From a virus: a stretch of DNA of 61,152 nt. The stretch covers positions 1-61,152 of the IMG/VR virus record IMGVR_UViG_3300020473_000029; one strand, given 5' to 3'. Under the pieces are notes generated by a model. It searched no databases and was not told where the DNA came from. It saw only the letters and a program-made list of their open reading frames with translations. Position 1 is the stretch's first letter; each line of letters opens with the position of its first letter. The position numbers and the translations under genes were made by a program. Shown piece after piece: positions 11,349 to 34,300 of this stretch.

Positions 11349-11368
11349 AACTATATGCCTAATATACA

Positions 11369-11565
11369 TGATATTATTATAAACAATTACCAGGCATATT
11401 ATATGATATTAAATATAAACAATTCATACACAATATGCATGATATTAAATATAAACAATTAAATCACATATTACACATGCTATATGTGCACAATTAATAT
11501 GCAATATGCTCATATATGATATAAACAATATATGCCTAATATGCATATTTTAAATATAAACAATT
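11369..11565 (+). repeat. Iteron-like array of TGATATTAAATATAAACAATT
   Basis: Copies lie at about 11369-11388, 11404-11424 and 11440-11460 (35 to 36 bases apart), with shorter or altered copies at about 11517-11530 and 11544-11565. Each ends in ATAAACAAT. The stretch 11349-11650 has no credible gene and is extremely AT-rich. Candidates are an origin, a DNA-unwinding element or regulator binding sites; TATAAACA also resembles the late -10 box TATAAATA by one base. Confidence 0.65.
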
Positions 11566-13885: not shown

Positions 13886-15787
13886 ATGCCTTTTACTAAG
13901 TATACAAACCTAGATTTTGACCAAATAAAGATATCCATTAAGGATTATCTTAGAGCAAACACTGAATTCAGTGATTTTGACTTTGAGGGGTCTAATTTTT
14001 CAGTACTAATTGATACTTTAGCATACAATACCTACATTACGGCATTTAATGCTAACATGACTGTGAATGAATCTTTCTTAGATTCAGCAACACTACGTGA
14101 AAATGTAGTATCATTGGCAAGAAATATAGGGTATGTGCCTCGTTCAAGGGCAGCAGCACAGGCAACAATCAGTTTTGATGTAGAAATAGGTGATATGCAG
14201 ACCTCTACTCTTGATTTAGAGGCAGGATTGGTATGTGTAGGTAATGCAAATGATTCAAATTACATATTTTCTACACCAGAACGTATAGTAACTACATTAA
14301 CTAAGATAAATGATACCACTAGGAGAGCAAGTTTTAAAGATATTACCGTATATCAAGGTACATTCCTTCAAAAATCATTTGAAGTTAATGGATCTTTAGA
14401 CCAAAGGTTTATTTTAGACAACTCATTCATCGATTCTTCAACAATTGTGGTTAGAGTAAGAGACTCTGCCAATGATACGTCAGAAGGAAGGGAATATCAG
14501 GTAGCAGATAACATTTTAAATATAGATAAAGAGTCAGAAATCTACTTATTACAAGAAGTTCAGGATGAAAAGTATGAATTACTGTTTGGAGATGGTTATT
14601 TTGGTAAAAAATTAAAAAATGGTAATGTAATAGACGTTTCTTACATTATTACTGACGGAAAAGAGGGTAATGGTGCTTCTAAATTTGTATTTTCTGGGAG
14701 ATTTAGGGATGATAAGAGATTAATTGAACCTCCAACCAATTCTATAGTCGTACATACGTCTCAGAATGCTGCAAATGGTTCTGATATTGAAAGTATTGAC
14801 TCAATTAAGTATTTTGCACCTAGAATTTACTCTTCACAGTATCGTGCAGTGACCTCAAGAGACTATGAATCCATTATTCAGTCAATTTATCCCAATACAG
14901 AGTCTGTTGCTGTTGTTGGTGGTGAAGAATTGGATCCACCAGAGTTTGGAAACGTATTAATTAGTATAAAACCCAAAAATGGTGACTATATTTCCGATTT
15001 TGATCGTCAAAATATCCTTGCAAAACTAAAAAATTACTCTCTTTCAGGAATTAACCAAAAAATCATTGATTTGAAGGTTCTTTTTGTCGAAATTGACTCT
15101 GCAGTCTATTATAACACTGCTCAAGTTACTAATGTTAATGATTTAAAGACAAGAGTTACGGATACATTGAATACTTTTAGAACTTCCAATATTAATAAGT
15201 TTGGAGGTAGATTTAAGTATAGTAAAATGTGTCAAATTATTGATAATGTTGATACTTCTATAACTTCTAATATTACAAGGGTAATTATCAGAAGAAATCT
15301 TAAGGCATTGGTAAATCGTGATACTCAATATGAATTATGTTTTGGAAATAAATTCCATGTTAATAAAGATGGTTTTAATATAAAAAGCACTGGATTTTAT
15401 ATTACTGGTAAAACAGATACTTACTTCTTTACCGATGTTCCAAGAGATGATCATACAGGAGTTATATCTGTTGTTAGGGAAAATCAAAATGAAGGTAAAT
15501 ATATTGTTGAGGTTAAGTCTGCAGGTACAGTAGATTACGATAAAGGTGAAATATTAATCAATACTATCAATATTAGTGGTACATCTAAGATTAATAATAT
15601 TATTGAAGTTCAAGCAATACCTGAATCTAATGATGTTATTGGATTATCTGATTTATATCTCGATTTTTCCGTTTCTGATAGTACAATAAATATGGTTAAG
15701 GATACGATTACTTCAGGCGAACAAATATCTGGTATCGGATACAAAACAACTTCTAGCTACTTAAACGGAGAACTAAAGAGGATATAA
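13886..15787 (+). CDS. 6: Baseplate wedge subunit gp6 (633 aa)
   Basis: The N-terminus (LDFDQIKISIKDYLRANTEF, then FSVLIDTLAYNTYITAFNAN and ATLRENVVSLARNIGYVPRS) is the characteristic gp6/baseplate-J-like start. YFAPRIYSSQYRAVTSRDYE near residue 311 is the second conserved block. Length is close to T4 gp6 (660 aa). gp6 forms the dimer ring that joins wedges. The stop is one base from the giant gene. Confidence 0.92.
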   Translation: MPFTKYTNLDFDQIKISIKDYLRANTEFSDFDFEGSNFSVLIDTLAYNTYITAFNANMTVNESFLDSATLRENVVSLARNIGYVPRSRAAAQATISFDVEIGDMQTSTLDLEAGLVCVGNANDSNYIFSTPERIVTTLTKINDTTRRASFKDITVYQGTFLQKSFEVNGSLDQRFILDNSFIDSSTIVVRVRDSANDTSEGREYQVADNILNIDKESEIYLLQEVQDEKYELLFGDGYFGKKLKNGNVIDVSYIITDGKEGNGASKFVFSGRFRDDKRLIEPPTNSIVVHTSQNAANGSDIESIDSIKYFAPRIYSSQYRAVTSRDYESIIQSIYPNTESVAVVGGEELDPPEFGNVLISIKPKNGDYISDFDRQNILAKLKNYSLSGINQKIIDLKVLFVEIDSAVYYNTAQVTNVNDLKTRVTDTLNTFRTSNINKFGGRFKYSKMCQIIDNVDTSITSNITRVIIRRNLKALVNRDTQYELCFGNKFHVNKDGFNIKSTGFYITGKTDTYFFTDVPRDDHTGVISVVRENQNEGKYIVEVKSAGTVDYDKGEILINTINISGTSKINNIIEVQAIPESNDVIGLSDLYLDFSVSDSTINMVKDTITSGEQISGIGYKTTSSYLNGELKRI

Positions 15788-15788
15788 C

Positions 15789-18700
15789 ATGATACAAACG
15801 GGGTTTGAACAGAGAGTTAATATACAACAGGTAATTGACAGTCAACTTCCTGAATTTCTATTAGATGAAAGTCCAAAAAGTGCTGAATTTTTAAAACAGT
15901 ACTATCTTTCACAAGAATTTCAAAGTGGTCCTACAGATCTTGCTGTAAATTTAGACCAATACTTAAAATTAAACAATTATAGTCAAGAAGTAATTCAAGG
16001 AGAAACTACATTATATGCTGGTATTAGTACGAATACTGATACTATTGAAGTATATTCTACTAAAGGATTCCCCAATCAATATGGTTTATTTAAGATTGAT
16101 GATGAAATAATTACATACACTGGACTTACAACAAATACTTTTACTGGTTGTAAGCGTGGATTTAGTGGAATTACAAGTTATAGAACAGATTTAGAGTCTG
16201 AAGAATTAGTTTTTAGTTCAACTAGTGAGCAAACTCATGCTTCACAAGCAAAAGTAACTAATTTAAGTGCATTATTTCTAAAAGAATTTTATAGAAAATT
16301 AAAATACACATATACACCTGGACTTGAGGATGTAGAATTTGTAAAAGATCTTGATGTTAATAATTTTATCAAAGAATCGAGGTCTTTATACGAATCTAAA
16401 GGAACAGAAGAGTCATTTAGGATATTATTTAATGTTTTATATGGTGTAGAACCACAAATTATTGATTTAGAACAATATCTACCAAAACCATCTACTGCAG
16501 AGTTTTTAAGAAGAGAAATTGTTGTTGCTGAGAGAGTAGGTAATACTGGAGATCCTACTAAATTAGTTGGACAAACTATCACAAAATCAACTGATAGTGC
16601 AACAAAAGCATCAGTTTCTGAAGTTGAACCATTTACTAGATCTGGAATTAGTACTTATTATAAGATGGGTCTCTTTGTTGGATTTAGTGATCGTGCTTTA
16701 ATTGAAGGTACTTTTAATATTCAAGCAAAAAGTAAGGTAGTTAATCCAGTATCAGCAGGTTCTTCGGTTATTACTGTTGATTCAACTATTGGATTTGGTG
16801 CTACTGGAACATTAATTTCCGATAGTAACGTTATTACATATAGTGATAAGTCAATTAATCAATTTCTTGGTTGTAAAAATATAGTTTATCCAATTGGTAT
16901 ATCATCTGATGTAAGAACTAATGAAGTTTTCTTTGGTTATGAAGATGGTGATACCAGTAAAAAGGTAGAATTTCGTTTAACTGGTGTTCTTTCTGAATTT
17001 GAAGCAACTAGTGATATTACAAGCACTACAGAAGGTCAATACCTATATGTAAAGAATGTTGGTGAAAAAATAAAAAATCCTGAACAAAATAAGACTTTTA
17101 AGCAAATATTTGCAAATTCTTGGATTTATAATACTAGTTCTAGATTTGATATAACAAATATTAATCAAAGTACTAGAACATTAACTTTATCAGCAGAAAT
17201 TGACCCATCAAGTTTAAAGAAAGGTGATACTGTCGATATTTTAAAGAAAAGTACTCAAAATATTGCTTTTTCTGGTGCTATAATTGATATTATTACTCCT
17301 GGTACTAAACAAATTGAATTAAGGGATTTACTTGGATTTACAGTTGATCCAAATGAAACTTATACTATTAGAAGAAGAATAAAAACTGCTACTAGTACTG
17401 GAACACCATTATCTTATGGTCAAAATCAATTAACAGTAGATATTCAAAATGTTTATAATGAAAATGATGAAAATTTTTATATAGGGTCAAACTCTTTACC
17501 TGCAGGTAATATAACAAAAAATACAATAAAAGAAACTATATCAACTACAACGTTGAATAGTTTACAAGGATATGATCCTGCAACTCAGCAATATTATATT
17601 ATTAGTTTTCCAGTCACAAGCGTTGATTTCGTAACTGGTGATAGAATTTATTATAATCCAGAAACTACTCAATTAAAAGGACTAGATGAAGGATATTATT
17701 ATGTTAAAGTTTTAGATGCACCAAATAATAATCAAATTAAATTATACCAATCAAGATCTTTAATTGAACTTGATGGTACTTTAGATCCCAAAACAGGTTC
17801 TCCTATGAATACTGCAATGGGATTTGTTGGAGATGGATCAAATAACCATAGTTTTATATTAGCACATCAAAAATCAGATAAAATATTTCCACAAAAATTA
17901 TTAAAAAAATTCCCATCTAAACAGAACTTACAAAAAGGTGAAGTAACTAAAACCATCCCAGGATCGACTGGAATGCTTGTTAATGGTGTAGAAGTAATAA
18001 ACTATAAATCTGTCGATAAAGTTTATTATGGACCGTTAGAGAAGGTTGTAGTGTATGGTCAGGGTAAGGATTATGATGTAGTTAATCCACCAAAAGTAAC
18101 TGTTGCTACTGGTGTTGGAATAACTGCACTTATACAACCAGTAATCGGTGAAGGTGTAATTAAAGATGTATTGGTAGATCCTCATGAATTTGATATAGAG
18201 AATGTAGATTCAGTTAGTATTTCTGGTGGTAATGGTTCTGGAGCAGAATTAAGTCCTGTTATGGGTCTTAGATACCGTGAAGTTGAATTTGATGTTCGTG
18301 AGTTATCAAATGGTGGTGGAATAGATGTAACTCAGGATACTATTACTTTTCTTACTGATCATGGGTTTAGTAATGGACAACCACTTGTATATAATTCAAG
18401 AGGTAATGAAGCAGTTGGAATTTCATCTGTTTATGGATATTCTGCTAATAATGCTGATGTTGATATTAAATTGCAATCTAATGCAATATATTATGCTCAA
18501 TGGGTTAATAATAAAACAATTAAATTATTCCACACAACAGGAGATCAGCAGGCTGGAATTAATACTGTAGGTTTAACAACTTCTCATGCACAAGGAATTC
18601 ATAAGTTTAGGACAGCAAAAGCAACTAATGTCTTAAGATCTGTTAAAGTTTTGAATGGTGGTTCTGGATATACTAATAGGGAATTAAAAGTAACACCAGC

Positions 18701-21700
18701 AGGAATATCTACTGTTAGTAATACTATTAATTTTAAAAATCATGGATTTAATGATGGTGATAAGATTGTATATAATACAGGTGGGACATCAATTGAGGGA
18801 TTGACTGTTGAGACAGGTATAACATCAACTTCACAGCATTATCAAGTATTAAAAATAGATGATAATTCCTTTAGACTTGCAGATTCTGGAATTGGTGGAA
18901 CAATAACATCAAATTATACTAGAAAAAATAATGTAAATTTAGTTTCTATTGGTAGTAGTCATCATAATTTCAAATATCCTAATATTGAAGTATCAATTGC
19001 CACTGGAATTTCTACTGTTGCTACTGGTGTAATTACAGCAACTCCTGTTGTACGAGGTAAGATTACTGATGCATACTTATATGAAGCAGGAACAGGATAT
19101 GGATCAACAATAATTAATTTTCATAAAAAACCTATTATTAGTATTAAATCTGGTAAAGGTGCTGAATTTAAACCAGTTATTGTTGATGGTAAAGTTAGTC
19201 AAGTTTTAGTTTCTGTATCTGGTAGTGGTTATACATCTCCTCCAGATTTAACTTTGGTTGGTATTGGATCTGGAATTGGTGCTAAATTTAGACCTGTTGT
19301 ACAAAATGGTGAAGTATCACATGTTATTGTGATTAATGAAGGCAGAAATTATGATGTTAATACATCTATAGCATCAACTGCAATTGGTTTAAATGGATTT
19401 ATAGAACCTTATGTTAGAGAATTAACTTGGAATAATGGATCAAGATTTGGTGATGAAATATTAGTTGAAAATGTTGATGGATTGGAATATGGTTGGGTAG
19501 GATATTCTACAGCATTAGGACAAAAAGAATATGGTGATAATTTGAGAAATCATTCACCAATTATTGGATGGGCATATGATGGTAATCCAATTTATGGTCC
19601 TGTTGGTTATTCTGATCCTGAAGATGATAGTAGTTCAAGAATAATGTTAAGTGGTTATAGTCTTATTCCATCTAATATTACAGATAGACCATCATTTAGT
19701 AATGGTTCTTTTGTTGAAGATTATGAATATACTAATGCTGGTGATCTTGATAAACATAATGGTAGATATTGCAAAACACCAGAATTTCCTAATGGAACAT
19801 ATGCATATTTTGCATCAGTAGATTTTACAACTTTAGTATCTACATTTCCATACTTTATAGGAGATACCTATAGATCTGTTGGTATTGGACAGACAGTAGA
19901 TCAAAATTTCAATTTTAATAATTCTGATTTAGTTAGAAATACATTCCCATATAAAGTTAATGATCTTTTTGCTAATAATGATTTTATTGTAGAACCCTAT
20001 GAAATTACACAACAAAGAGCTGTTGTTGATTCTGTAGTTAAAGGATCTATTGAAAATATTATTGTTAATGAATCTGGCGATGGTTATATTGTTGGTGATA
20101 CTGCTAGATTTGATAATACTGGAACTAATGGTGGTGGTTTAAGTGCATTTGTTTCTAAATTGAAAGGAAAAACAATTGTTGATATAAACACTGAAGTTGA
20201 AGATTATCAAACAACAACTTTAATTTGGGATAATTCAAATCAAGTTTCAGTGCATATAGATCCAGTACATGCTTTGGTTGATGAGGATAATGTTGTTATT
20301 TCAGGAGTTTCAACATATATTGCAGGATTAACTCAATCTCATGTTATAGGTGTTACTTCAGAAAGGACTTTCTTACTTGCTCCTGTACCTTCAAATTCTA
20401 CAGTTGGATATGTGACAGACATTTATGTTTCTTCTATTCCTGATAGTGTTTCTGTTGGATCTACATTCAGTATTAAATCAGAAAGGGTTTCAGTTCTTGA
20501 TACATTTGAGAAAAATAAAGTTATAAGAATTGTTAGAGGAGAATCTGTTGGTGCTGCATATACTGCTTCAACTGAATTAAATACAGTTCCATCATCATTC
20601 ACTATCCCATTAGAAACACCATTATTTGAATCTAAATTAAACGATGTTAGATATTTTAATCCACTTCATTCTGTAGGTATTGGAACAACTACTGGTGGTA
20701 CTACAACTAAGAATTATAGAATTGGTGAAGCAGACATTCCTGTATCAATTGCAAATCAAAGCATTTATATTCCAAATCATCCATTTAAACAGAATCAAAA
20801 ATTAACATTTAAAAAATATAATAGTTCTAGTCAAAATATTGGTATTAGTACAGAACCAGATAGTAGTATTCTATCACTACCAGAACTGGGTGTTATACAA
20901 ACAGTTTATGTAATTAATAAATCAAAAGACTTTATTGGTTTAACAACTCAGATTGGATTAACTACATCTACAAATGGATTATATTTCCGTTCATTTACTA
21001 GTAATGCTGATGATAGGGATTATAGATATTCACTAACTTCAAATTATACACAAGAAACCGCAAAAGCTGAAAAAATTACTGCTACTGTTGCAGTATCTAC
21101 ATCACATGGAATGCTTAATAATGATGTTATTGATTTATCAGTAAGATCAAATCAATCTGTTGGTATTGGTACATCTACTGCAGTAAGAGTTAAGTATCAT
21201 TCAGGTTCAGATAAATTAATTGTCAATCCAACAACTTTTGCACACACAGCATTAAATGCATCAAAAAATGAATTAACATTAACCGATCATGGTTTTAAAA
21301 CTGGTGATAAAGTATTCTATGATTCTACAACATCACAACCATTAGTAGGTTTAGGAACTGGTGGATATTATACTTATAGGGTAGATGATAATAAATTCCA
21401 ATTATCACACACTAGATATGATACTGAACAAAATCCACCTATAATTATATCTCTTGATACTCCTAGTGCTGGAAGTACACATCAAATTTCTAAGATTAAT
21501 CCACAGATTAATGTAATTAATAACAATAATTTAGTATTTGACGTTTCAGACACCACATTATCAGGATATGATTTTAAAATTTATTACGATAAAGAATTTA
21601 ATAATGAATTAGTTTCTGTTGGTGGTACTGTTACTGATTTTGTAATATCAGATTTTGGTGGTGCTGTTGGTTGTGGTACTACATCAACATTAACATTAAA

Positions 21701-24700
21701 TTATACTAATCAATTACCAACAAAATTATATTATAATTTGGAAAGAACTGGTTACATAAGTACTTCCGATACAAACGTTAAAAATAGTTCAGAAATAATA
21801 TTTGGTAATAGTGTTTATGATAATACTTTTGCTATATCTGGTGTTGCTGCTACTAGTTTTAAATTCTCTTTAAATTCTTTACCAGAAACCTTACAATATA
21901 CACAATCAAATACAGATATATTAGAATATTCTACTAGTTCTACTACTGCTAATGGTGGTGTGGATGCGATGAGAATTACATCAGGAGGACTTAATTACAA
22001 GAAATTACCATCATTTAAGTCTATTAATTCAACTAACGGACAAAATGCTGATATTATTCCAGCATCTACAAGTATTGGTAGAATTAAACAAGTTACTGTA
22101 GAAAATGCTGGATTTGAATATTCTGCTGACAAGACATTAAGACCAGAAGCATATGTTTCTCCAGATATTGTAGTAATTAATAGAAATACTATTACTAATA
22201 TTGAAGTTATAACTGGTGGTACTGGTTATACTAACACACCTAATTTAGTAGTTGTTAATCCAGATACTGGATTAAAATATGATAGTGGTATATTTAAAGC
22301 AGAGATACAAGGATCTTCTATTGATAATGTTGAAATTGTACAAGCACCAAAAGGACTATCTGATGTTACAAACATAATATATTCTCTTAATAATACTAAT
22401 GGAAGTGGAATTGAAACATGTATGTCATCTACATCTGGTATATTAACATGTTTTATAACAACACCAATTGCTGGATTTGCAACACCACCTTTTGCTGTAG
22501 GAGATAAAGTTTTTGTTGAAGGTATTGTTAATATTGGCTTTAATACAACAGGAACTGGATTTAATTCTGAAGATTATGGATTTAAATTCTTTAATGTTAG
22601 TGCTTATGATCCTAGTGTTAACCCAGTTAAGGTAGAAGTTGATTTATCTGAGTTTGTTACAAATGCAGGGTTGGCAGTAACTAATCAAAATGGATATGCA
22701 TCTTTAATAAATCAAAATAATTATCCTACATTTAAATTAACACAAGAACCACTAGATTTTATTGAAGGGGAAACACTTCTTACTGCTGTAGGTACAGCAC
22801 AGTCAATAACAAGTTATATTGAAAGAGATATAGTTATTACTCATACTTTATCTGATGGAATTAAAGTATTTGGTACTTATGATTTAGAAAAAGATCAAAT
22901 AATACTTGGTAAGAGATCAGGAACATTAGCAACTATTAAATCTACTAACGATAATGAAGCATATTATAGAGTAGATTATTCTCTCAGACAAGATCGTGGT
23001 TGGAGTGATGATATTGGAAAATTAAATGTAGATTATCAAGTTCTTCCTGATAATGATTATTATCAAAATCTATCATATACTATTAAGAGTCCTATAGAAT
23101 GGGAAGATTTAGTTAATCCTGTTAATAGACTTTTACATTCATCTGGACTAAAGAATTTTGCAGACACGGGAATTACTACTACAACTAATGTTACTGCAGG
23201 AACAAGTTTAGATTCTGATAGTATTACTATAATTGATATTATTGGTGAAAAGAGAGTTGATACTATTTCTGATTTTGATTTTGCTATTGATATTGATACA
23301 TTAAGTAATAATAAATCAAGATTTATCAAACTAAAAACTAAGAGATTATCCGATTATATTGATTGTAATACTAACCGTGTATTGGCAATAGATGATATTA
23401 GTGGTAGTTTCTCTAGATCTGATAAAGTTAGTGATTTATTCAGTGATCTTTTAACTTATAGTGTATCTGAAGGTTATAATAGATTTTTAGTTCAAGTAGT
23501 AAATCCAAATAATAAAGAAAGACAAGCAACTGACGTTATAACACTTACTAATAGTTATGGTGGTCAATATGGTCAAGTTTATACAATAGAGAAAGGATCT
23601 ATTGGTATAGGAACTGCTGGAACAAGAGTGGGTGATATTGGAGGTAATATTGATTCGGAAGGAATTTTAACTCTAAGATTTGATCCTATTGATCCATATA
23701 CACATGATTATGATATTAAAGTTATAAGAACTAGTTTTAATTCATCTCTTGCTGGAATTGGCACTACAAAGTTTGGTTTTATTGATATTGATTCAAGAAA
23801 CCAGATTGTTGCATCAAATACTACTGTTGGTATTATTACTGCAAATATTGATGAAAATGAAGGTTTTTATGCTAATGTTGAGATAATTAATGCAACAACA
23901 GATGATACAACATATGTTGAGATGTTTGTTGATCAGGATGGAACAAATTCTTATATATCAGATTTCTGGGTAGATAACAGAGGATCTAATAGTAAGTTCA
24001 TTGGTGCATTTACATCAAATATATCTTCTGGTGTATTGTCAATTGATTATGAAAATGATGAAGCAAATTCAGTTTTAGTTAGATCTAGAATAGTTGGATT
24101 TGGTACTACTTCTGTTGGTATAGGAACTTACAGGTTCTTATCAACAGGTCAATCACCAGAAACTGAAAAAACAGCAAGATATGAAGCAAAGTATGCACTT
24201 ACTGCTGCATCACCATCTGTTACTAATGTATTCAGTTTAGATAAGACTGATGCAACTACTATAAAAACAATTGCTAAGGTTGGTTATGGTTTAACATCTG
24301 CTTTACATCAAATATTATCAATAGGTGATGAAACAGATATTTACACAACACAATATCCATTCTTGTCTATTGGTAGTACTAGTGGAATTGGTACTTTTGG
24401 ATCTGAGTATAGTGGTAGTAATGCAATACTTAAATTCTATCCAGATGCTGGTGTATCTCAAGAAATTACCATACAAACTTATAGTGAAGTAATTCAAACA
24501 GATAGAGATTTATTAAATGTACCAAATGATCTTAGTTATGGACCTGTAAATGAAAGGTATCTTCTTGGAACATATGATGGTCAAAATAGAAATAGACTTA
24601 ATAAAGATGAATTTGTAATTAGACATGAAGGTGTTCCAATATATGCAAAAACATTTGATCCAGCAACTACTGTTAATTTAAGCACTGGTTTATTCACAAT

Positions 24701-27700
24701 TAATGATCATTTCCTCAATACTGGTGAAAAATTAGAATATAGATCAACATCAACGTTTAGTAATATTACTGCTTCAGACATGGTTATGTCTAACGGTAGT
24801 GTATTACCAGCAGATTTATATGCAATTAAAGTTAGTGATAATACATTTAATGTAGCAACAACTAAGGCAAATGCAGTTGCAGGTACTAATGTTACATTTA
24901 ATACTGCTGGTGCTGGAAATGCACATAAGATTGGAATGGTTAAGAAGGCAGAAAAAACTGTTCTTTCTCTTGATGGAGTTGTTCAAAGTCCATTAACATG
25001 GACCCCAATTAATCATACACTTGCTAATAATGGTGGATCTATAGGTGTTGGAGATACATATTTTGCATTATCTGGAATATCTTCTATTGTATCAAATGAT
25101 GTTCTTAAAATTGGTAATGAGTATATTAAAGTTGTTAATGTTGGATTAGGAACACTTGCAGTTGGTCCTATAACAGCAGATGGTACATTTAATGTAATTG
25201 AAGCAGAACGTGGTTTTGTTGGAACAACTGCGGCTACACATAATGATGGTGCGGAAGCAAGAGTTTATCTTGGAGCATTTAATTTAATCGATAGTACAAT
25301 CTACTTCACACAACCACCAATTGGAAATAATGCTAAACCTATAGATCCTGATACCAATCTTAAGACACCAAGATCTACATTTGGTGGAAGAGTATTCATG
25401 AGACAAGACTATGATACAAACCAAATATATGATAATATTTCCAAATCATTTACAGGTATAGGTGCAACATATACATTATCTGTAAATGGTATAAACACCA
25501 CAGGAATTGAAACTGGTAGTGGTATTGTATTCATTAATAATATTTTCCAGACACCATCCACAGTTAATAACACTGGAAATAATTATAGTTTCAGTGAAGA
25601 TTCAAATGTTGGAGTATCAAGTATTAAATTTACTGGTATAACAGATGATAGTGGAAATATATTATTATCTGATGAAGATGTTAATAAAAATCAATTACCA
25701 AGAGGTGGTGTTATTGTATCTTTAGGTTCTACCTTGGGTGTTGGTTATGCTCCTCCTGTTGGTGCTGCTGTAAGTGCTGTACTTAATAGTAGTGGTGGTA
25801 TAACTGCAGTTGGTATAGGAACTACTGATAACAATGGTTCTGGATATCGTGGTGTTGTTGGTGTTGGTGTGACAGATGAAGCATATGTGCATAAGTTTGT
25901 AAGTGCTGCTACAGGTGCTGTTACTGGTACAGGTGGTCCATTTACACCAACAAATGCAGTATATGAATCACATACAGGTATATTAACCTTAACCATTCCT
26001 AGTCATGGAAGAAGTAGTGGTAATGTTCAACTTGTTAATAATTCATTAGTATTCACTTGTTCTAGAGATGGACATGCAAGTGAACATACCTATCCAAGAG
26101 CAACGGATCCTGCTGCAAATGGAAATAACTTAGCACTTACTAAGATTGATAATGATACAATTTCTATTAATGTTGGTGCTGGTGGTGGTAAAGGAACAGG
26201 TGCAACAGTTACAGCAACTGTTGGTGCTGGTGGAACCATTATATTTGGTGTTTCTGCTGCTGGTAGCAACTATGTTAATCCAAAATTTGTAGTATCACCA
26301 CCACCATCATATGAGAATCTACCTGTTGTTGGTGTATCAAGGCGTGGTCTTGGAGCAACTACAGAAACTGGTAAAGGTTTATTAGTAACTTTGGATGTTG
26401 GTCCTGCAAGTCCTACACCTCAAGATAATAAGTTTGGTGATGCAGCAGATCTTATTGATAAGAATAGACTATTAATTTCTGAAACTGCTGCTAGAAGAAT
26501 GAAGGAAAGATTCCCTTCATATAACTATCCATCAGGATTTGTTGAGCAAGATTGTATTGATGATGTAATTGATGTTCTTGAAGCAGTATCATATAATATG
26601 CGTTATGGTGGAAATGATAAGACATATGATGCATCACGTTTCTATATTGATGGTTTCTATTCAAACCCTGCTCCAGTTACTGGTGAAGAAGAGCAAGTTG
26701 TATATGCAATGATGGAAGCAAGAGATATGGCATCTCTAGCATTAGCAAATAAACCAATTGGAAGATTTGAAGGGGCACAATATGCACACACCTATAGTGG
26801 TGGTACAGCAACAAATGCGGTTGTTTCTGGTGGTGATTATGATCATACATTTGTTAGTGCTGTTACAAATGGTATTAATGGTTCATTAACACCAAATGGT
26901 GCTACTTATATTGCTGGAACTGGAGTATTAACATTAACATTTGCTAGTGCTCATGGAGTTGCCGATGGTGGAAATGTAACTATTGCTGATTATTCATTAG
27001 TATTCACTTGTGATAGAGATAATAATCAAACAAATCACGCATATCCAAGATCTGATGATCCTGCATCTGGTTCTACACTTAGTGCTACTCTTATTAGTCC
27101 AACATCATTCTCAGTAAATGTTGGTACTTCTCCATTAGTATTCAAGAATGTTGTTACAGGTTCTAATCCTGAGAAAACATCATATGATCCATTAACTGGA
27201 GATTTAGTACTTAATGTTGGTTCTGGTCATGGATTCCTTGCACCAACAACACTTGCTACACCTACAGCAGCACTTTATGCTCCAACAACAGGTGTTTTAA
27301 GGCTTACAATTCCAGGTCATGGTCTTGCAGTTGGTGATTATATTAAGATTGTTGATGATTCATTAACATTTACATGTGCTAGAGATAATCATTCTACTGA
27401 ACATAAGTATCCACGATTTGGTGATCCTGCAAGTGGTGAATGGATCAATGTTAACCAAAGATCAGCAAATAGAATATGGGTTAATATTGGCAAATCTCCT
27501 GATATTTCTGCACATACATTTGTTTCAGCAAGACAAGGTGTTAGTAAAGCAAATTCTAACATTGGTATTGGAACTCAGTTGTTAGGATTTAAATGTACTA
27601 GAGATGCTACTTCTGCTAATCCAGAAGGTGTATCACAAGTTCTATATCCACGTTCAACAGACAGATTCTGTTGGAATAAGAATCAAATTTCTATTGCATC

Positions 27701-29675
27701 AACAACTACTTCCACAGTTACAGTAAATGTGGGTGTATCCTCTGCAACACATAGTTCTAGAGTACAAGTATTTGATAAAACTATCACTGGTGATGTTTCT
27801 GGTGTAACAGGTCAATATAGTCCTGCTGATTGTGCTAATGTCGTATCGTCAGTTCATACTTTAGTTGGAATTGTTACTGAAGCAATTGACGCTAACACAT
27901 TACCAGCAACAAGAACTATTAGTTCTTTCAATACGTTTGAAGTTGTTGATTATAAGATTGCAAGACAAGGTTATGGATTCAAACCTGGTGATGTATTTAA
28001 ACCAGTTGGTCTTGTTACACATGCAAGTTTAAGTTCTCCACAAAAAGAATTTGAATTAACAGTAGTTGATACATTTACTGATGGTTTCTCTGCTTGGCAA
28101 TTTGGTGAATTAGACTTTATTGATTCTATTAAGGATTTGCAAGATGGTAAAAGAACTCGTTTCCCACTTATATACAATGGAGATTTATTAAGTTTTGAAT
28201 CTGATGATGATATTGATTTAAATGCAGTATTATTAATCTTTATTGATGGTGTGATACAAGATCCTGGTGTTCATTACAATTTTGAAGGTGGTACATCGTT
28301 TATTTTAACTGCACCACCATCTGCAGAAAATAATGTATCAGTATTCTTCTATAGAGGAACTCGTGGAATAGATAGTAAATTTACAAATGTAGATGAAACT
28401 ATAAAAGTTGGTGATGTTGTAGAAATTAAACAGACAGAAAATTTAGCTGGTCAAGATCCAAGAACAGTTTCTGGTATTTCTAGTTCTGATGTTATGAGTA
28501 CTAACATATACACAGGAGAAAATATATTTGATGCAAATGATCCTCAATATGCTCCACCAAATCCAGTTCCTTGGAGACTTATGGATTGGAATAAGCAGAA
28601 ACGTGATAAGACTATTGAAGGTGAGATTATTTCCAAAGCAAGAGATTCTATTGAAGGTATGGTTTATCCTACTGCTAGAATTATCGGTGATTTCCCAATA
28701 CAATCTAATGGAATTTCTACAATATTTGTAGATGACGCACAATTCTTTAATTATGAAGAAAATGAATCAAGTATTAATATTGTTAATGTTGATGCTAAGA
28801 TTTTTGAAAATCAAGTATCTGTAGCAGCATCATTATCAGCAACAGTTGGTACTGGTGGAACAATAAGTGCTTTAACTGTCATTAGTGGTGGTTCTGGTTA
28901 TGTTGGAAGTATGGTTACTGTATCAATAGCAAGACCATATGGTAATACTTATACTGGTACTGCAACAACTGCAACTGCTCTTGTTCCAGTTGTAGATGGA
29001 TCATTATCTGGTATTGCAAGTATTGGAATGTTGGGTGGTTCTGGGTATGATTCAACAAATCCACCATTAGTTATAGCACCAATGCCATCATTTAATGTTG
29101 GTGAATCTATTTCTGGAATTGCAACAGTTAAAGGATTCTCTGGAATTCTTACTGGTATTGGTACAACTGCAGGAATAAATGGTGCTCCATTGGCATTAGA
29201 ATTCCATATTGCTTCTGAAACAATCCTTGGATTAAATAATGATCTTAAGGCAGGTTATCCTATCTATATTCATGGTACTAATGTTGGAAATGGTGTTACT
29301 TCAATTAACACAGTTGATGCTAGTGTTGTTGGAATAGGAACTTCACGTATAGATAATATCTACATCGTTGATGGTTATCATCCTTTTGGTAATCCAGCAA
29401 ATAGTGGAATTATCACATGCAATATTAAATCTAATACAACAATGACTGATTTTGGTACTGCAAATGCTGCTGGATTTGTTGCAACAGCAACTACAACAAC
29501 GCCTGATATAGGTAGATTTACATGGGGTTTATTGCAAGGAAGTTCTAGATCATCTACAGTTTCTATTGGAGTTACAGGACTCACTATAGACGCTGGATTG
29601 AGTACATTCCCAACGATTCAGAGAAGAGGATTTGGATTAAGAGATTCTGGTGCTCTCAGAAAGGATCTTGGGTAG
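15789..29675 (+). CDS. Giant baseplate/tail-fibre-like structural protein in the gp7 position (4,628 aa)
   Basis: One uninterrupted 13.9-kb frame between gp6 and gp8, where T4 has gp7 (1,032 aa). The N-terminus (INIQQVIDSQLPEFLL-like start, residues 1-250) looks like the wedge-attachment part of cyanophage gp7-position proteins. A YHYH-like motif (GWAYDGNPIYGPVGY) lies near residue 1260. Many Gly-rich 'GxGY' beta modules are scattered from about 960 on. Residues about 3370-3990 hold four copies of a repeat with HG...FTC.RD...YPR...DP, set within a helical module (AADLIDKNRLL, DVLEAVSYNMRYGG). The C-terminus TIQRRGFGLRDSGALRKDLG is typical of the cyanophage version. It probably forms wedge plus fibre; the exact homology to gp7 is inference from position. 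Confidence 0.8.
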   Translation: MIQTGFEQRVNIQQVIDSQLPEFLLDESPKSAEFLKQYYLSQEFQSGPTDLAVNLDQYLKLNNYSQEVIQGETTLYAGISTNTDTIEVYSTKGFPNQYGLFKIDDEIITYTGLTTNTFTGCKRGFSGITSYRTDLESEELVFSSTSEQTHASQAKVTNLSALFLKEFYRKLKYTYTPGLEDVEFVKDLDVNNFIKESRSLYESKGTEESFRILFNVLYGVEPQIIDLEQYLPKPSTAEFLRREIVVAERVGNTGDPTKLVGQTITKSTDSATKASVSEVEPFTRSGISTYYKMGLFVGFSDRALIEGTFNIQAKSKVVNPVSAGSSVITVDSTIGFGATGTLISDSNVITYSDKSINQFLGCKNIVYPIGISSDVRTNEVFFGYEDGDTSKKVEFRLTGVLSEFEATSDITSTTEGQYLYVKNVGEKIKNPEQNKTFKQIFANSWIYNTSSRFDITNINQSTRTLTLSAEIDPSSLKKGDTVDILKKSTQNIAFSGAIIDIITPGTKQIELRDLLGFTVDPNETYTIRRRIKTATSTGTPLSYGQNQLTVDIQNVYNENDENFYIGSNSLPAGNITKNTIKETISTTTLNSLQGYDPATQQYYIISFPVTSVDFVTGDRIYYNPETTQLKGLDEGYYYVKVLDAPNNNQIKLYQSRSLIELDGTLDPKTGSPMNTAMGFVGDGSNNHSFILAHQKSDKIFPQKLLKKFPSKQNLQKGEVTKTIPGSTGMLVNGVEVINYKSVDKVYYGPLEKVVVYGQGKDYDVVNPPKVTVATGVGITALIQPVIGEGVIKDVLVDPHEFDIENVDSVSISGGNGSGAELSPVMGLRYREVEFDVRELSNGGGIDVTQDTITFLTDHGFSNGQPLVYNSRGNEAVGISSVYGYSANNADVDIKLQSNAIYYAQWVNNKTIKLFHTTGDQQAGINTVGLTTSHAQGIHKFRTAKATNVLRSVKVLNGGSGYTNRELKVTPAGISTVSNTINFKNHGFNDGDKIVYNTGGTSIEGLTVETGITSTSQHYQVLKIDDNSFRLADSGIGGTITSNYTRKNNVNLVSIGSSHHNFKYPNIEVSIATGISTVATGVITATPVVRGKITDAYLYEAGTGYGSTIINFHKKPIISIKSGKGAEFKPVIVDGKVSQVLVSVSGSGYTSPPDLTLVGIGSGIGAKFRPVVQNGEVSHVIVINEGRNYDVNTSIASTAIGLNGFIEPYVRELTWNNGSRFGDEILVENVDGLEYGWVGYSTALGQKEYGDNLRNHSPIIGWAYDGNPIYGPVGYSDPEDDSSSRIMLSGYSLIPSNITDRPSFSNGSFVEDYEYTNAGDLDKHNGRYCKTPEFPNGTYAYFASVDFTTLVSTFPYFIGDTYRSVGIGQTVDQNFNFNNSDLVRNTFPYKVNDLFANNDFIVEPYEITQQRAVVDSVVKGSIENIIVNESGDGYIVGDTARFDNTGTNGGGLSAFVSKLKGKTIVDINTEVEDYQTTTLIWDNSNQVSVHIDPVHALVDEDNVVISGVSTYIAGLTQSHVIGVTSERTFLLAPVPSNSTVGYVTDIYVSSIPDSVSVGSTFSIKSERVSVLDTFEKNKVIRIVRGESVGAAYTASTELNTVPSSFTIPLETPLFESKLNDVRYFNPLHSVGIGTTTGGTTTKNYRIGEADIPVSIANQSIYIPNHPFKQNQKLTFKKYNSSSQNIGISTEPDSSILSLPELGVIQTVYVINKSKDFIGLTTQIGLTTSTNGLYFRSFTSNADDRDYRYSLTSNYTQETAKAEKITATVAVSTSHGMLNNDVIDLSVRSNQSVGIGTSTAVRVKYHSGSDKLIVNPTTFAHTALNASKNELTLTDHGFKTGDKVFYDSTTSQPLVGLGTGGYYTYRVDDNKFQLSHTRYDTEQNPPIIISLDTPSAGSTHQISKINPQINVINNNNLVFDVSDTTLSGYDFKIYYDKEFNNELVSVGGTVTDFVISDFGGAVGCGTTSTLTLNYTNQLPTKLYYNLERTGYISTSDTNVKNSSEIIFGNSVYDNTFAISGVAATSFKFSLNSLPETLQYTQSNTDILEYSTSSTTANGGVDAMRITSGGLNYKKLPSFKSINSTNGQNADIIPASTSIGRIKQVTVENAGFEYSADKTLRPEAYVSPDIVVINRNTITNIEVITGGTGYTNTPNLVVVNPDTGLKYDSGIFKAEIQGSSIDNVEIVQAPKGLSDVTNIIYSLNNTNGSGIETCMSSTSGILTCFITTPIAGFATPPFAVGDKVFVEGIVNIGFNTTGTGFNSEDYGFKFFNVSAYDPSVNPVKVEVDLSEFVTNAGLAVTNQNGYASLINQNNYPTFKLTQEPLDFIEGETLLTAVGTAQSITSYIERDIVITHTLSDGIKVFGTYDLEKDQIILGKRSGTLATIKSTNDNEAYYRVDYSLRQDRGWSDDIGKLNVDYQVLPDNDYYQNLSYTIKSPIEWEDLVNPVNRLLHSSGLKNFADTGITTTTNVTAGTSLDSDSITIIDIIGEKRVDTISDFDFAIDIDTLSNNKSRFIKLKTKRLSDYIDCNTNRVLAIDDISGSFSRSDKVSDLFSDLLTYSVSEGYNRFLVQVVNPNNKERQATDVITLTNSYGGQYGQVYTIEKGSIGIGTAGTRVGDIGGNIDSEGILTLRFDPIDPYTHDYDIKVIRTSFNSSLAGIGTTKFGFIDIDSRNQIVASNTTVGIITANIDENEGFYANVEIINATTDDTTYVEMFVDQDGTNSYISDFWVDNRGSNSKFIGAFTSNISSGVLSIDYENDEANSVLVRSRIVGFGTTSVGIGTYRFLSTGQSPETEKTARYEAKYALTAASPSVTNVFSLDKTDATTIKTIAKVGYGLTSALHQILSIGDETDIYTTQYPFLSIGSTSGIGTFGSEYSGSNAILKFYPDAGVSQEITIQTYSEVIQTDRDLLNVPNDLSYGPVNERYLLGTYDGQNRNRLNKDEFVIRHEGVPIYAKTFDPATTVNLSTGLFTINDHFLNTGEKLEYRSTSTFSNITASDMVMSNGSVLPADLYAIKVSDNTFNVATTKANAVAGTNVTFNTAGAGNAHKIGMVKKAEKTVLSLDGVVQSPLTWTPINHTLANNGGSIGVGDTYFALSGISSIVSNDVLKIGNEYIKVVNVGLGTLAVGPITADGTFNVIEAERGFVGTTAATHNDGAEARVYLGAFNLIDSTIYFTQPPIGNNAKPIDPDTNLKTPRSTFGGRVFMRQDYDTNQIYDNISKSFTGIGATYTLSVNGINTTGIETGSGIVFINNIFQTPSTVNNTGNNYSFSEDSNVGVSSIKFTGITDDSGNILLSDEDVNKNQLPRGGVIVSLGSTLGVGYAPPVGAAVSAVLNSSGGITAVGIGTTDNNGSGYRGVVGVGVTDEAYVHKFVSAATGAVTGTGGPFTPTNAVYESHTGILTLTIPSHGRSSGNVQLVNNSLVFTCSRDGHASEHTYPRATDPAANGNNLALTKIDNDTISINVGAGGGKGTGATVTATVGAGGTIIFGVSAAGSNYVNPKFVVSPPPSYENLPVVGVSRRGLGATTETGKGLLVTLDVGPASPTPQDNKFGDAADLIDKNRLLISETAARRMKERFPSYNYPSGFVEQDCIDDVIDVLEAVSYNMRYGGNDKTYDASRFYIDGFYSNPAPVTGEEEQVVYAMMEARDMASLALANKPIGRFEGAQYAHTYSGGTATNAVVSGGDYDHTFVSAVTNGINGSLTPNGATYIAGTGVLTLTFASAHGVADGGNVTIADYSLVFTCDRDNNQTNHAYPRSDDPASGSTLSATLISPTSFSVNVGTSPLVFKNVVTGSNPEKTSYDPLTGDLVLNVGSGHGFLAPTTLATPTAALYAPTTGVLRLTIPGHGLAVGDYIKIVDDSLTFTCARDNHSTEHKYPRFGDPASGEWINVNQRSANRIWVNIGKSPDISAHTFVSARQGVSKANSNIGIGTQLLGFKCTRDATSANPEGVSQVLYPRSTDRFCWNKNQISIASTTTSTVTVNVGVSSATHSSRVQVFDKTITGDVSGVTGQYSPADCANVVSSVHTLVGIVTEAIDANTLPATRTISSFNTFEVVDYKIARQGYGFKPGDVFKPVGLVTHASLSSPQKEFELTVVDTFTDGFSAWQFGELDFIDSIKDLQDGKRTRFPLIYNGDLLSFESDDDIDLNAVLLIFIDGVIQDPGVHYNFEGGTSFILTAPPSAENNVSVFFYRGTRGIDSKFTNVDETIKVGDVVEIKQTENLAGQDPRTVSGISSSDVMSTNIYTGENIFDANDPQYAPPNPVPWRLMDWNKQKRDKTIEGEIISKARDSIEGMVYPTARIIGDFPIQSNGISTIFVDDAQFFNYEENESSINIVNVDAKIFENQVSVAASLSATVGTGGTISALTVISGGSGYVGSMVTVSIARPYGNTYTGTATTATALVPVVDGSLSGIASIGMLGGSGYDSTNPPLVIAPMPSFNVGESISGIATVKGFSGILTGIGTTAGINGAPLALEFHIASETILGLNNDLKAGYPIYIHGTNVGNGVTSINTVDASVVGIGTSRIDNIYIVDGYHPFGNPANSGIITCNIKSNTTMTDFGTANAAGFVATATTTTPDIGRFTWGLLQGSSRSSTVSIGVTGLTIDAGLSTFPTIQRRGFGLRDSGALRKDLG

Positions 29676-29710: not shown

Positions 29711-31297
29711 ATGCCAGCCATTGTAACAGATCAGTTCAGAATATTAAATGCAGGTAATTTTGTTGATTCAATTACCGATGATGCAAATTCATATTATGTT
29801 TTTGTAGGATTATCAAATGCAACATCAACTGGTCAATATAAAAAAAGTGATTGGGATGATAAAACACCCAATCCTGTAGATAATTATGATTATCATGGAT
29901 TTATTAGTGATAATATGTCTTATGGTAAAAGAATTACTTCTGCAAATGTAAAAAGACTTGCTAAGAGATATAATTGGACAAGGGGTGCAAAATACGAAAT
30001 GTACCGTCATGATTATAGTGTAGATAATAAAACATCATCTGGTTTGAATCGATTATATGATTCTAAGTATTATGTGATGAATAGTGATTATAAAGTTTAT
30101 ATTTGTATTGATAATGGAACTACAGGATTATCAACTACACCTAATGCATCTTTAGATGAACCAAATTTTACAGATTTAGAACCATCTAAGGCAGGTAGTG
30201 GTGGTGATGGATATGTTTGGAAATATCTTTTCACCGTTACTCCGAGTGATATTATTAAGTTTGATTCTACTGATTATATTTCATTACCAAGTAATTGGTC
30301 ATCATCAACTGATGCTCAAGTAACTACAGTAAGAAATAATGGAGATTCTTCTGTTAATGATAATCAAATTAAAAAAGTTTTTATTAAAAATAGAGGAGAT
30401 GGATATTCTACAGGATCACATGAACTTAATATCCTTGGTGATGGTTCAGGTGGTAAAGTAGTAGTTGATGTAGATACTAACGGTTATATAACAAATACTG
30501 TTGTATCTGCTGGTGGTAAAGGATATAGCTTTGGTGTAGTTGATACTGGATCAATTAGAGGTGCAGGTGCAGGTACAGTTGAAGCAAATTTAGTTCCAAT
30601 TATTCCACCATCAAAAGGTCATGGATTTGACATCTATAAAGAATTGGGGGCAGATAAGGTTTTAGTTTATGCTAGATTTGATGATTCTACAAAGGATTTT
30701 CCAACAAATACAACATTTGCTCAAATTGGAATAGTTAAGAATCCAACTACTGTTGGAACTGCTAGTTCAGTTTTTGTACAAAACCAATACTCATCATTAA
30801 GTGCTTTTAAATTCTCTTCAGTAACTAATGAATCTTTAACGGTACCAGCAATTGGTCAAAGGATTCATCAGACTACTCCACAAGGAACTGCTCAAGGGTA
30901 TATTGCATCATATGATAGAGAAACTAAAGTTCTTAAGTATGTTCAAGATAGAACCTTGTATATGAATCCATCCACTAATGATACTCAAGATCATGCTGGA
31001 ATTAGTACAACTGGTAATGTTCTTGAATTCTATACTGCAGATCCTAATTCAGCAGCAACAGTTAATACTGTTGTAAGTGATGATGGATTTACTGGAACAA
31101 TAGATCGTGATTTTACAGGAATAAGTACAAATCCATCTGGAAATAAACTTATTACTTTGGGACTCAATTTCACATATGGACATGCTCCTGCTGAGATAAA
31201 TAAAGGGTCGGGTGAAATAATCTACATAGATAATCGTCCTGAGATTAATAGAAACTCTAGACAAAAGGAAGACGTAAAAATCATCTTGGAATTTTAA
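29711..31297 (+). CDS. 8: Baseplate wedge subunit gp8 (528 aa)
   Basis: IVTDQFRILNAGNFVDSI, then SYYVFVGLSNAT, RYNWTRGAKY, YKVYICIDNG and GYVWKYLFTVTPSD are the ordered blocks of T4 gp8. It is much longer than T4 gp8 (334 aa); the extra part includes a Gly-rich 'GxGY' module at about 226-285 like those in the giant protein. Its own late promoter lies upstream. gp8 is a dimeric wedge component. Confidence 0.9.
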   Translation: MPAIVTDQFRILNAGNFVDSITDDANSYYVFVGLSNATSTGQYKKSDWDDKTPNPVDNYDYHGFISDNMSYGKRITSANVKRLAKRYNWTRGAKYEMYRHDYSVDNKTSSGLNRLYDSKYYVMNSDYKVYICIDNGTTGLSTTPNASLDEPNFTDLEPSKAGSGGDGYVWKYLFTVTPSDIIKFDSTDYISLPSNWSSSTDAQVTTVRNNGDSSVNDNQIKKVFIKNRGDGYSTGSHELNILGDGSGGKVVVDVDTNGYITNTVVSAGGKGYSFGVVDTGSIRGAGAGTVEANLVPIIPPSKGHGFDIYKELGADKVLVYARFDDSTKDFPTNTTFAQIGIVKNPTTVGTASSVFVQNQYSSLSAFKFSSVTNESLTVPAIGQRIHQTTPQGTAQGYIASYDRETKVLKYVQDRTLYMNPSTNDTQDHAGISTTGNVLEFYTADPNSAATVNTVVSDDGFTGTIDRDFTGISTNPSGNKLITLGLNFTYGHAPAEINKGSGEIIYIDNRPEINRNSRQKEDVKIILEF

Positions 31298-31300
31298 AAA

Positions 31301-34300
31301 ATGCCACAAAAAACGAACCTCAATATAAACCCTTATTACGATGATTTTAAAAAGTCGAATAACTATTATCGTGTCTTGTACAAACCAGGACATCCGATAC
31401 AAGCAAGGGAATTAACAACATCACAATCAATTCTACAAAATCAATTAGAATCGTTTGGTAGTCATATATTTCAAGAAGGTGCTATGGTAATCCCTGGTGG
31501 GGTTATGTGCGATTCACAATATGCTGCTGTCAAGTTAAATCCAGATCATTTAGGGGTTAATATATCTGTTTATGCTAGTTTTTTGGTTGGAAAACGTTTA
31601 AGAGGTGAAAGTTCAGGTGTAGTTGCAGTTGTTGATAGTTATAGTGATATTAATGAAAATGAAGGTGTTACACATTTAACTATATGGGTTAAGTATGTTC
31701 GTGGTGGTACTGATAATGAAACTTCAACATTTATTGATGGTGAAATATTAATTACAGAAGATGCATTTACCTACGGAAATACTACAATTAATGTAGAAGA
31801 TACTGTTGCATCTATTATTTCTGAAAATGCAAAAGGCGTAGGATATTCTGTAGCTATTGAAAAAGGTGTTTATTTTATTAGGGGAACTTTTGTTGATGTA
31901 TCTAAAGATAGGATTGTTTTAGATCCATATACAAATAATTCTTCATATAGAGTAGGTTTAACTATTTCTGAAGAAATAATATCTTCTAAAGAAGATGAAT
32001 CATTATATGATAATGCTAAGGGATTTTCAAATTATGCTGCTCCAGGTGCAGATAGATTAAAGATTTCTACAAAATTATCTAAAAAATTATTAACTGATAA
32101 TGATGATAAGACATTTGTTGAATTGGTTAGAGTTGAAAATGGAGAAATTAAGAAAATTAAAAGTCAAAATGAATATTCTATAATTAAAGATTATTTTGCT
32201 AAAAGAACATTTGAAGAGTCTGGTGATTATGCTGTAGATAGATTTATAGTTGATGTTGAAGAATTATTAGATAATAGAAAAGGAAATGATGGTATATTCC
32301 TTGATACTCAAATAACTTCAGATGGTAATGTTCCTACTGAGGATATGGTAGCAGTTAATGTATCTGCAGGTAAGGCATATGTTAAAGGTTATGATGTAGA
32401 ATCTGTAGGTACAACTACTGTTGATGTAGATAAACCAAGAGATATACAAAAAGTTGATACCGCAATGGTACCATTTGAATTTGGATTATCAATACGTCTT
32501 AATAATGTTGTTGGTACACCTTTACTTGCTGTTAATAATTCTAGTAATACTGTAGATTTGTATAGTGGTAGAAGAAGTGCTACATCTGGTACTGATACTT
32601 TAATAGGAAAGGCAAGAGTATATTCATTCTCTGTAACTGATGCACCATATACAGGTGCTGCAACTGAATTTGATTTATATCTTTATGATGTTCAGACATA
32701 TACCATAATAACTTTAAATGAATCCATTTCTTCTACAGATGCTCCCATATCAACTCGTGTTAGAGGTGTTAGTAGTGGGGCAACAGGATTTATTGTTGAA
32801 AATCCAAGTACTACTGCAAAATTAACAGAAACTTCTGGTACATTTTTACAAGGAGAAAGATTAATATTTAATGAAGAAGAAAATTCTTCTAATGCTAATG
32901 GTGTTAATAGAACAGTAAAATCTGTCGATACATGGGGTATTAATGATGTTAAATCAGTATTTCAGGATAGTACTGCTCTTGGATTAGACAATGATTTTAT
33001 TGCTGATCTTGCATTACAACCTCGTATTCTTTCAGGATTTAGTGTTACTGATGAAATTGAGGTTGCTGCAACAACAGGTGTTACAAAATGTCCTGGAAGA
33101 AATTTTGCAGCAAAACTTAAAGTAGGATCTCTTATTAGTTATCAACGTTCTGATAATAATGATCTTACCTTGAATAAAGTTACTGCTAATGATGGTTCTA
33201 CTATAACATTAGATGATACACCACTTGATGTTACTGGATTATATGATAATAATTCTGATTTGGCATATGTAGGTACTTTTAGAGTAATGGTACCAATTGT
33301 TAGAAATAATGGTGGATTATATGCAAAACTTGACGAACGTGCAATATCTTCTGTTGATTTTTCATCTTCAAGTCTTGCGGTAGAGACACAAATAAATGAT
33401 CTCACTACAGATTCTGATGGTGCTCTTACTTTTGGTGTAGGAAATATTACAACAGCAAATGCAGGTATTACAACATCATTCTTTGAAACTTTTGATGCTG
33501 AAAGATATAGTATTCATTATAATGCTGGTGCAATTGATCCATTAACATCCGATAAATTTACATTAACAAATAATGGCAAAACAGTTAATTTTACAGGATT
33601 AACTGCGTCTCAAACTAATAATGTTACTGTTAATGCTACTGTTCTAAAACAAGGTATTACAAGTAAGCAAAAAGATTATTTAAGAAGTGAAAAACGTAAT
33701 GTTACTCTTTCAAAATCAGCAGCATCTACTGCAACTACTGGTTTAACTCAAAATAAATTCTACGGTCTTAGAGTTGAAGATAGGGAAATTTCTTTAAATG
33801 TTCCAGATGTTGCTAAAGTTATTGGTGTATACGAATCATTAAATACATCTGCTCCTATTTTAGATAAAATCTCTATTCCATCAGGATTTACTTTAACATC
33901 AAATGCATTGTTGGGTGAAGAGATTATAGGAACAGAAAGCGGAACAGTAGTTCAAATTACAAACATACCTGATGATACAAGTGTAGAATTTGCATATCTC
34001 AATAGTAATAAGTTTGAAGTTGGTGAAGTAATTAAATTTAGAGAGTCTGATATAACTACAACTATAGTTACAATTACCAATGGTTCATATCAAAATGTTA
34101 CTAACGAATTTACTTTAGATAGAGGACATAGAGAAACTCATCATGATTATTCTAGGATTGTAAGAACTAGTACATCATATATTCCAACTTATCAACTCTT
34201 AGTTGTGTATGATAAGTATCGTGTTCCTGCTAATGATAATGGTGATGTTTTTACAGTAAATTCTTATCCACAATCAAGATATGGTGAAATTCCACAATTA

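Follow-up and report, generated by a model that had tools for sequence, protein, structure and literature searches.

In phage T4, the genes for the baseplate wedge proteins gp6, gp7 and gp8 follow one another in this order, and gp7 is a protein of 1,032 residues. As described in PMC10457771, each wedge of T4 and of the Vibrio phage XM1 contains a single gp7-type subunit along with two of the gp6 type, and the 242-residue XM1 protein has flexible parts that are said to take part in tail spike binding. For cyanophages, the relevant passage of PMC7029224 reports T4 gp7 to be absent from cyano- and pelagimyophages, apparently with VrlC in its stead; PMC3037559 (Sullivan 2010), in the part that deals with the question, assigns gp7 to the non-cyanophage core and expects divergent copies of such functions in cyanophages, and the shared-gene list excerpted from PMC2993671 is without gene 7. 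The record of Prochlorococcus phage P-SSM2 already gives the name gp7 to a 5,195-residue protein encoded between gp6 and gp8 (hereafter, the slot). The labels of the slot proteins differ among records (gp7, gp7-like/baseplate wedge initiator, structural protein, putative fiber, hypothetical) and so do their lengths, which are 1,454 residues in S-CRM01, 3,274 in Syn1, 3,884 in S-CAM9, 3,895 in S-SRM01, 4,067 in Bellamy, 4,120 in S-SCSM1, 4,225 in ACG-2014f, 4,878 in Sf-CH5 and 6,076 in syn9. In S-CREM2, the protein at the place of gp7 (1,937 residues by its coordinates, and likened to the others by place alone) is given in the virion data of PMC10665884 as an intermediate wedge protein with 91 unique peptides. 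The slot gene of S-SCSM1 is marked 'virion protein' in its record, and the portion of the S-SCSM1 paper that reports 45 virion proteins leaves the slot protein unnamed.

The giant gene studied here is of this known kind, and its identity as a wedge protein is not new; what is new is its anatomy. It lies in the window (the whole stretch of viral DNA that was analysed, 61,152 bases), and the features of the locus are as follows.

13483..13884, + strand: gp25-like wedge subunit (phrog_261), upstream of gp6
13886..15787, + strand: gp6-like wedge subunit (phrog_219, E 7e-197; Pfam Gp6-like_1st)
15789..29675, + strand: giant gp7-slot gene, 4,628 residues (PHROG 2885, also 701 and 4406)
15789..16748, + strand: gp7 core, residues 1-320, a helical part and a small beta domain; stretch homologous to T4 gp7 at ~182-313
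15993..16226, + strand: beta module, residues 69-146, inserted in the helical core; found by self-match
16749..25877, + strand: shared body, residues 321-3363, colinear with P-SSM2, S-SRM01, ACG-2014f and Sf-CH5
19500..19844, + strand: YHYH-family domain, residues 1238-1352 (Pfam PF14240, E 9.2e-24), with Y-A-Y-F at the name motif
25878..27938, + strand: length-variable block, residues 3364-4050, with FTC-type motifs at 3420, 3737, 3859 and 3932
25878..26189, + strand: extra repeat unit, residues ~3364-3467, missing in two ~95%-identical relatives
27939..29672, + strand: shared C-terminal part, residues 4051-4628, colinear with P-SSM2, S-SRM01, ACG-2014f and Sf-CH5
29711..31297, + strand: gp8-like wedge subunit (phrog_438, E 3e-147; Pfam Phage-Gp8)
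31301..38554, + strand: VrlC-like protein of 2,417 residues (Pfam DUF4815), without a gp7 match

Two other features of the window lie upstream of these genes: a gene with homing-endonuclease matches, one of them to the GIY-YIG family, at 5947-6978 on the minus strand, upstream of the structural genes, and tandem repeats with periods of 49 and 35-37 bases at 7247-7364 and 11286-11565, upstream of the baseplate genes.

The giant gene is real and intact. As the initial annotation had stated, a single frame is open between gp6 and gp8; it starts with ATG, runs for 4,628 codons with no internal stop and takes up 13,887 of the 61,152 bases (22.7%). The GC content at third codon positions is 0.06-0.11 in all 15 full blocks of 300 codons and 0.15 in the final 128 codons. 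In comparisons with three relatives, dN/dS is below 1 in every one of 12 windows (400 codons each, 228 in the last), ranging from 0.05 to 0.75, 0.10 to 0.48 and 0.25 to 0.59, with a high dS (~0.75) against the third relative. A single open frame of 3,959-4,615 residues also spans the slot in all nine IMG/VR contigs fetched for comparison (hand-picked from the 20 of 22 contigs that carry gp8, all from other IMG/VR records), and named isolates likewise carry a giant gene between gp6 and gp8. At the DNA level, a search of the whole gene against named phages gave only two 60-base matches. At the protein level, the PHROG 2885 profile ('baseplate wedge subunit') matches it at E 0, the best stretch being residues 2-3441, and a tblastn search with residues 1-2937 found matches in 463 of 50,697 phage records, 92 of which cover at least 80% of the query. 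By the first word of their names, these records are Synechococcus (372), Cyanophage (61), Prochlorococcus (24) and Marine (6).

The similarity to T4 gp7 lies near the N-terminus. BLASTP of residues 1-337 against T4 gp7 aligned 196-224 to 728-758 (E 2e-4). For profile comparisons, 109 of 131 N-terminal sequences passed a start filter, and 66 pre-selected loci were reduced to 55 by removal of near-duplicates and joined by the window. The resulting 56 N-termini, compared by hhalign with eight T4-type gp7 sequences, aligned residues 182-313 to gp7 702-824 (E 9.4e-11, probability 97), with a score of 96.1 against 25.9 for the best of 60 column shuffles. With the core profile, hmmsearch (filters off, 26 proteins) found all eight T4-type gp7 proteins at sequence E-values of 4.9e-10 to 9.6e-9. 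A profile of 17 giant proteins matched gp7 as well, at E 8.4e-6 for the single T4 sequence and 1.8e-6 for the family. Fourteen T4 proteins were tried with this profile (gp53, gp5, gp6, gp7, gp8, gp9, gp10, gp11, gp12, wac, gp34-gp36 and 986 residues of gp37), and for the 13 other than gp7 the best E-value was 0.034, none being above noise. The core match is short (89-108 columns, 24-26% identity), and the homology case rests on the family because the window protein as a single sequence hits the right residues of the gp7 profile at just E 0.006 (probability 6). With the whole giant protein as query, phmmer had no PDB hit at E 0.1, and the Pfam Baseplate_wedge model was set aside as evidence, its match being below the cut-off (E 0.036). 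The sequence comparisons, with support from a weak predicted fold, show that residues ~180-313 are the same domain as T4 gp7 ~700-825. No match above noise was obtained between the giant profile and T4 gp7 1-640, nor did the T4 protein match the giant protein a second time. In cyanophages, gp7 begins with this core, which is followed by up to ~5,200 residues (~4,300 in the window protein). Conservation is among the highest in residues 1-400 (66-74% identity in seven contig relatives, L287-L293), and the beta module inserted in the core has a second copy at residues 311-382. In the open-access literature searched, we found no statement that maps the gp7 core on the giant protein; as Figure 4 of PMC10665884 places the proteins of S-CREM2 onto T4, we claim no priority for it.

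Structure models covered residues 1-604 and the C-terminal 400 residues. The former is weak (mean pLDDT 64.5, pTM 0.35), and its helices at 12-58, which would form the core bundle with two gp6 copies, are predicted with pLDDT below 60. In a Foldseek search with this model, the sole match at E 0.001 or better was 9f4a_A0 (E 3.1e-4; TM-scores 0.10 and 0.06). VIA-align placed 5iv5_BJ, 9f4a_A0 and 5hx2_A in rows 7, 8 and 11, at gp7 707-849, and residues 178-404 of the giant protein were matched to gp7 707-846; the Z-scores of 7.6-8.4 with an rmsd near 12 are middling, and unrelated rows are equally high. All three entries contain 'Baseplate wedge protein gp7' (chains BJ and A0 were taken as gp7 from their lengths of 1,004 and 1,031). 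The fold result counts mainly because it agrees with the sequence profile on both the protein and the residues, and with this reserve the predicted core fold resembles that of solved gp7. The model of the C-terminal 400 residues (pLDDT 57) was too poor: its VIA-align rows (Z at most 6.2) were discarded, and it gave no useful fold match.

The slot protein of Stenotrophomonas phage Yut2 (503 residues; L301:2869-4377) gave matches on both sides, at E 5.6e-13 to the cyanophage profile and at E 9.9e-7 to T4 gp7 645-947; it looks like a compact gp7 and bridges the T4 and cyanophage forms. Of the two genes that follow gp6 in Det7, which were tried as further bridges, Det7_204 is marginal (E 0.002) and Det7_205 gave no match. 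Between them, the BLASTP alignment, the hhalign comparison, the fold match and the Yut2 bridge support the wedge-like N-terminal part seen in the initial annotation, and the proposed profile check of the N-terminus against T4 gp7, once run, found homology (E 9.4e-11). In the pelagiphage HTVC008M, the slot protein (I899_gp055, L302:2636-5686), labelled 'head closure Hc2', matches the core profile at E 8.1e-18 and gave E 0.023, not above noise, when compared alone with the T4 gp7 profile, so that its tie to gp7 runs through the cyanophage profile only. Another HTVC008M protein, I899_gp059 (L304), is labelled 'baseplate wedge initiator' and matches neither the core profile nor gp7.

Downstream of the core, the YHYH-family domain matches PF14240 with 84.9 bits against a cut-off of 25. 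All ten aligned slot proteins keep HS-x-[IL]-[IL]-G-x-A-x-DG-x-PIYG and read Y-[AC]-Y-[FY] at the place of the name motif (motif place and site residues were taken from the family name and from the relevant part of PMC7824862). The YHYH-like motif reported near residue 1260 thus belongs to a genuine family domain, at 1238-1352, but lacks the name-giving histidines (Y-A-Y-F). In PMC7824862, as far as its section on the family goes, YHYH is a predicted metal hydrolase with three conserved histidines plus an aspartate; these three histidines were not found in the ten aligned slot proteins, in which the only invariant histidine is that of HS-x (the single histidine of the stretch in six of the ten). 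The naming histidines being missing, the metal-hydrolase idea is doubtful for the slot proteins.

The internal repeat block and the C-terminal ending that had been noticed at first reading both held up: the former spans ~3364-3985, and the latter is common to cyanophage slot proteins. Two relatives with 95.2% and 94.8% identity are without 103 and 104 of the window residues, nearly all of them within 3364-3467. Over their aligned parts, the first three repeat units share 47-51% identity, and unit 4 is less similar. With protein sequences that agree at only about half of the positions, the units yield no array in Tandem Repeats Finder for the variable block. Residues 3601-3800 are wholly missing in four of 13 compared proteins (L291, L292, L293 and S-SRM01). 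The repeat unit occurs at 667 places in 292 phage records and, among the 40 matches listed, gp14 neck protein and short tail fiber are found as labels. One stretch in the gp14-like neck protein of the window itself (42077-43471, 464 residues) gave two matches to residues 1051-1200 of the giant protein. At the C-terminus, for which 37 of 80 loci were used together with the window, most relatives keep the last 28 residues well (68-85% identity in L287-L293, 28% in ACG-2014f). Residues 4401-4600, with 43-50% in L287-L293, belong to the least conserved, though they change slowly in the comparison with the two nearest relatives. In that comparison the last 230 residues are slow as well, yet they form the fastest dN/dS window against L288, which makes them a possible receptor-facing tip; such a tip may lie near the C-terminus.

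Most probably, the giant protein is a rebuilt gp7 wedge subunit, presumably one per wedge, with a long arm of beta modules that is changeable in length. A different reading, given in the initial annotation, is that wedge and long tail fibre are fused in one chain, in which case the C-terminal ~3,000 residues would trimerise and carry a receptor-binding tip. The 'putative fiber' annotation of the syn9 slot protein (6,076 residues) and the match of PHROG 5342 ('tail fiber protein') to residues 3824-4053 speak for a fibre, as does the finding of the repeat unit under short-tail-fibre annotations; the same unit, however, also occurs in a gene annotated as gp14 neck protein and is therefore no fibre mark. 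Known fibres are mostly trimers. This expectation clashes with gp7-type subunits that are present once per wedge according to PMC10457771, and a homotrimeric fibre made from such a subunit would be hard to reconcile with the make-up of the wedge. Furthermore, none of T4 gp12, wac, gp34, gp35, gp36 and the 986 residues of gp37 was matched by the giant protein, and S-CREM2 has its own 'Long tail fiber' and 'Short tail fiber' in virions (in the protein data of PMC10665884). A separate gene of S-CRM01 is marked gp12-like. Given that gp7 alone was matched among the 14 T4 proteins and that the S-CREM2 fibre genes are separate, the fused fibre found no support, although a fibre need not match these T4 proteins, and we regard it as improbable; gene content is that seen within the 61,152 bases, and fibre genes could lie elsewhere in the genome.

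The wider suggestion that the giant gene had replaced several T4 baseplate and fibre genes fared no better, as nothing shows a takeover by it. In T4, gp9-gp12 are encoded between gp8 and the neck genes. Genes for them are missing from that place here: the window has the VrlC-like gene and 39417-40955 there, neither of which matches T4 gp9-gp12 or wac, and in P-SSM2, too, the gp9-gp12 labels are absent from this interval. The table in PMC2984593, in the part bearing on this, counts gene 9 among the genes common to cyanomyoviruses.

It is less probable still, and in our view quite unlikely, that the giant protein is a polyprotein whose wedge core is separated by cleavage from adhesin or spacer pieces. 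The slot of S-CRM01 could be taken as a split version of it, since it holds a short slot protein and two further genes (1,454 + 317 + 504 residues), and in Syn1 and S-SCSM1 additional genes stand between the giant gene and gp8. Against this, one intact chain is encoded in all nine fetched contigs, and the extra proteins of S-CRM01, Syn1 and S-SCSM1 match none of 31 segments of the giant protein at E 0.001, which, within that test, means that they are not split-off giant pieces. A scan with the S-CRM01 N-terminus found two loci only.

Very unlikely, although it has the statement in PMC7029224 and the core assignment excerpted from PMC3037559 (Sullivan 2010) on its side, is that cyanophages are without gp7, that VrlC substitutes for it and that the giant protein is just a fibre or decoration. 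VrlC-like proteins gave no match to the gp7 family (E 0.21 for one sequence, E 0.81 for a profile of four), whereas the giant protein does match it (E 0.006 for the single sequence, E 1.8e-6 for the profile of 17), and E 8.1e-18 was obtained for the HTVC008M slot protein with the core profile. The published absence of gp7 is contradicted, in the case of HTVC008M by way of the cyanophage profile alone. The VrlC-like protein of the window (31301-38554) has a solved relative in 9euf and related entries ('DUF4815 domain-containing protein, ORF65', E 1.5e-35). That the gene is an assembly error or decayed has practically no probability: frame breaks do occur in the S-SKS1 copy, but dN/dS is below 1 throughout the giant gene, frame and gene order are common to other contigs and isolates, and the colinear contigs refute an assembly error for the window, so that the check proposed for a false join showed none (one open frame in nine of nine contigs). 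In S-SKS1, the slot (L003:10001-22387) has one open frame only until ~12122 and is annotated as pieces beyond that.

For a rebuilt gp7 wedge subunit, assembly could be pictured as follows. One copy of the giant protein would join two copies of gp6 through its helical core, as in T4 and XM1, and each such joint would found one of the six wedges. The ~4,300 residues of small, beta-rich-looking modules would then make six arms of one chain each, or a skirt, that surround the tail tip and hold or reach toward receptor-binding parts. The block of ~100-residue repeats (3364-4050), near the distal end, gains and loses units, and this turnover would alter the length and surface of the arm, leaving the core and the shared C-terminal part untouched. 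The alignments show that the extra mass is, by position in the sequence, on the C-terminal side of the core, from which it would hang; in T4, the larger share of it comes before the core.

More tentatively, and with considerable doubt, gp7 could be seen as a general wedge platform that is extended before the core in T4 and after the core in cyanophages, here as six monomeric arms of ~0.5 MDa; the repeat block would be a quick dial for length and surface, with units shared among the slot protein, gp14 and the short tail fibre, and host contact would be adapted in the baseplate and not only at fibre tips. The analysis shows where to find gp7 in a common group of ocean viruses, in which it is lacking according to a published comparison, and indicates which end of the giant protein most likely attaches to the baseplate. 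As some near-identical contigs differ in a single repeat unit of a baseplate protein, it becomes testable whether the baseplate periphery itself tunes host contact.

Compared with known systems, the giant protein shares with T4 gp7 (1,032 residues) the core domain (~700-825 in T4) and the place between gp6 and gp8. In T4 gp7, however, ~640 residues precede the core and ~200 follow the matched stretch, whereas the core starts the chain in the giant protein. The slot protein of Yut2, annotated 'hypothetical protein', has its core from residue 4 on, i.e., at the start of the chain as in the giant protein, but no long extension, and it matches profile positions 8-54 and 183-283 only, with no match to the inserted beta module. 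XM1 gp17 (242 residues), by its description in PMC10457771, is the orthologue of T4 gp7 and is present once per wedge with two copies of gp16. Among the cyanophages, the S-SRM01 'baseplate wedge initiator' (3,895 residues) is the top-listed named relative, with 45.4% identity over residues 1-2933; it is without residues 3601-3800, and the motif of the repeat unit was not found there. The slot protein of syn9 (6,076 residues, 'putative fiber'; L090:8763-26993) has the core and the YHYH-family domain as in the giant protein, but its extension is longer and an insert of ~510 residues lies inside the core (profile position 108 resumes at residue 617). P-SSM2 gp7 (PSSM2_111, 5,195 residues) occupies the same slot, is 41.2% identical over residues 2-2936, and shares the core, the C-terminal part and the repeat units with the giant protein, with nine FTC motifs of the repeat unit compared to four in the giant protein.
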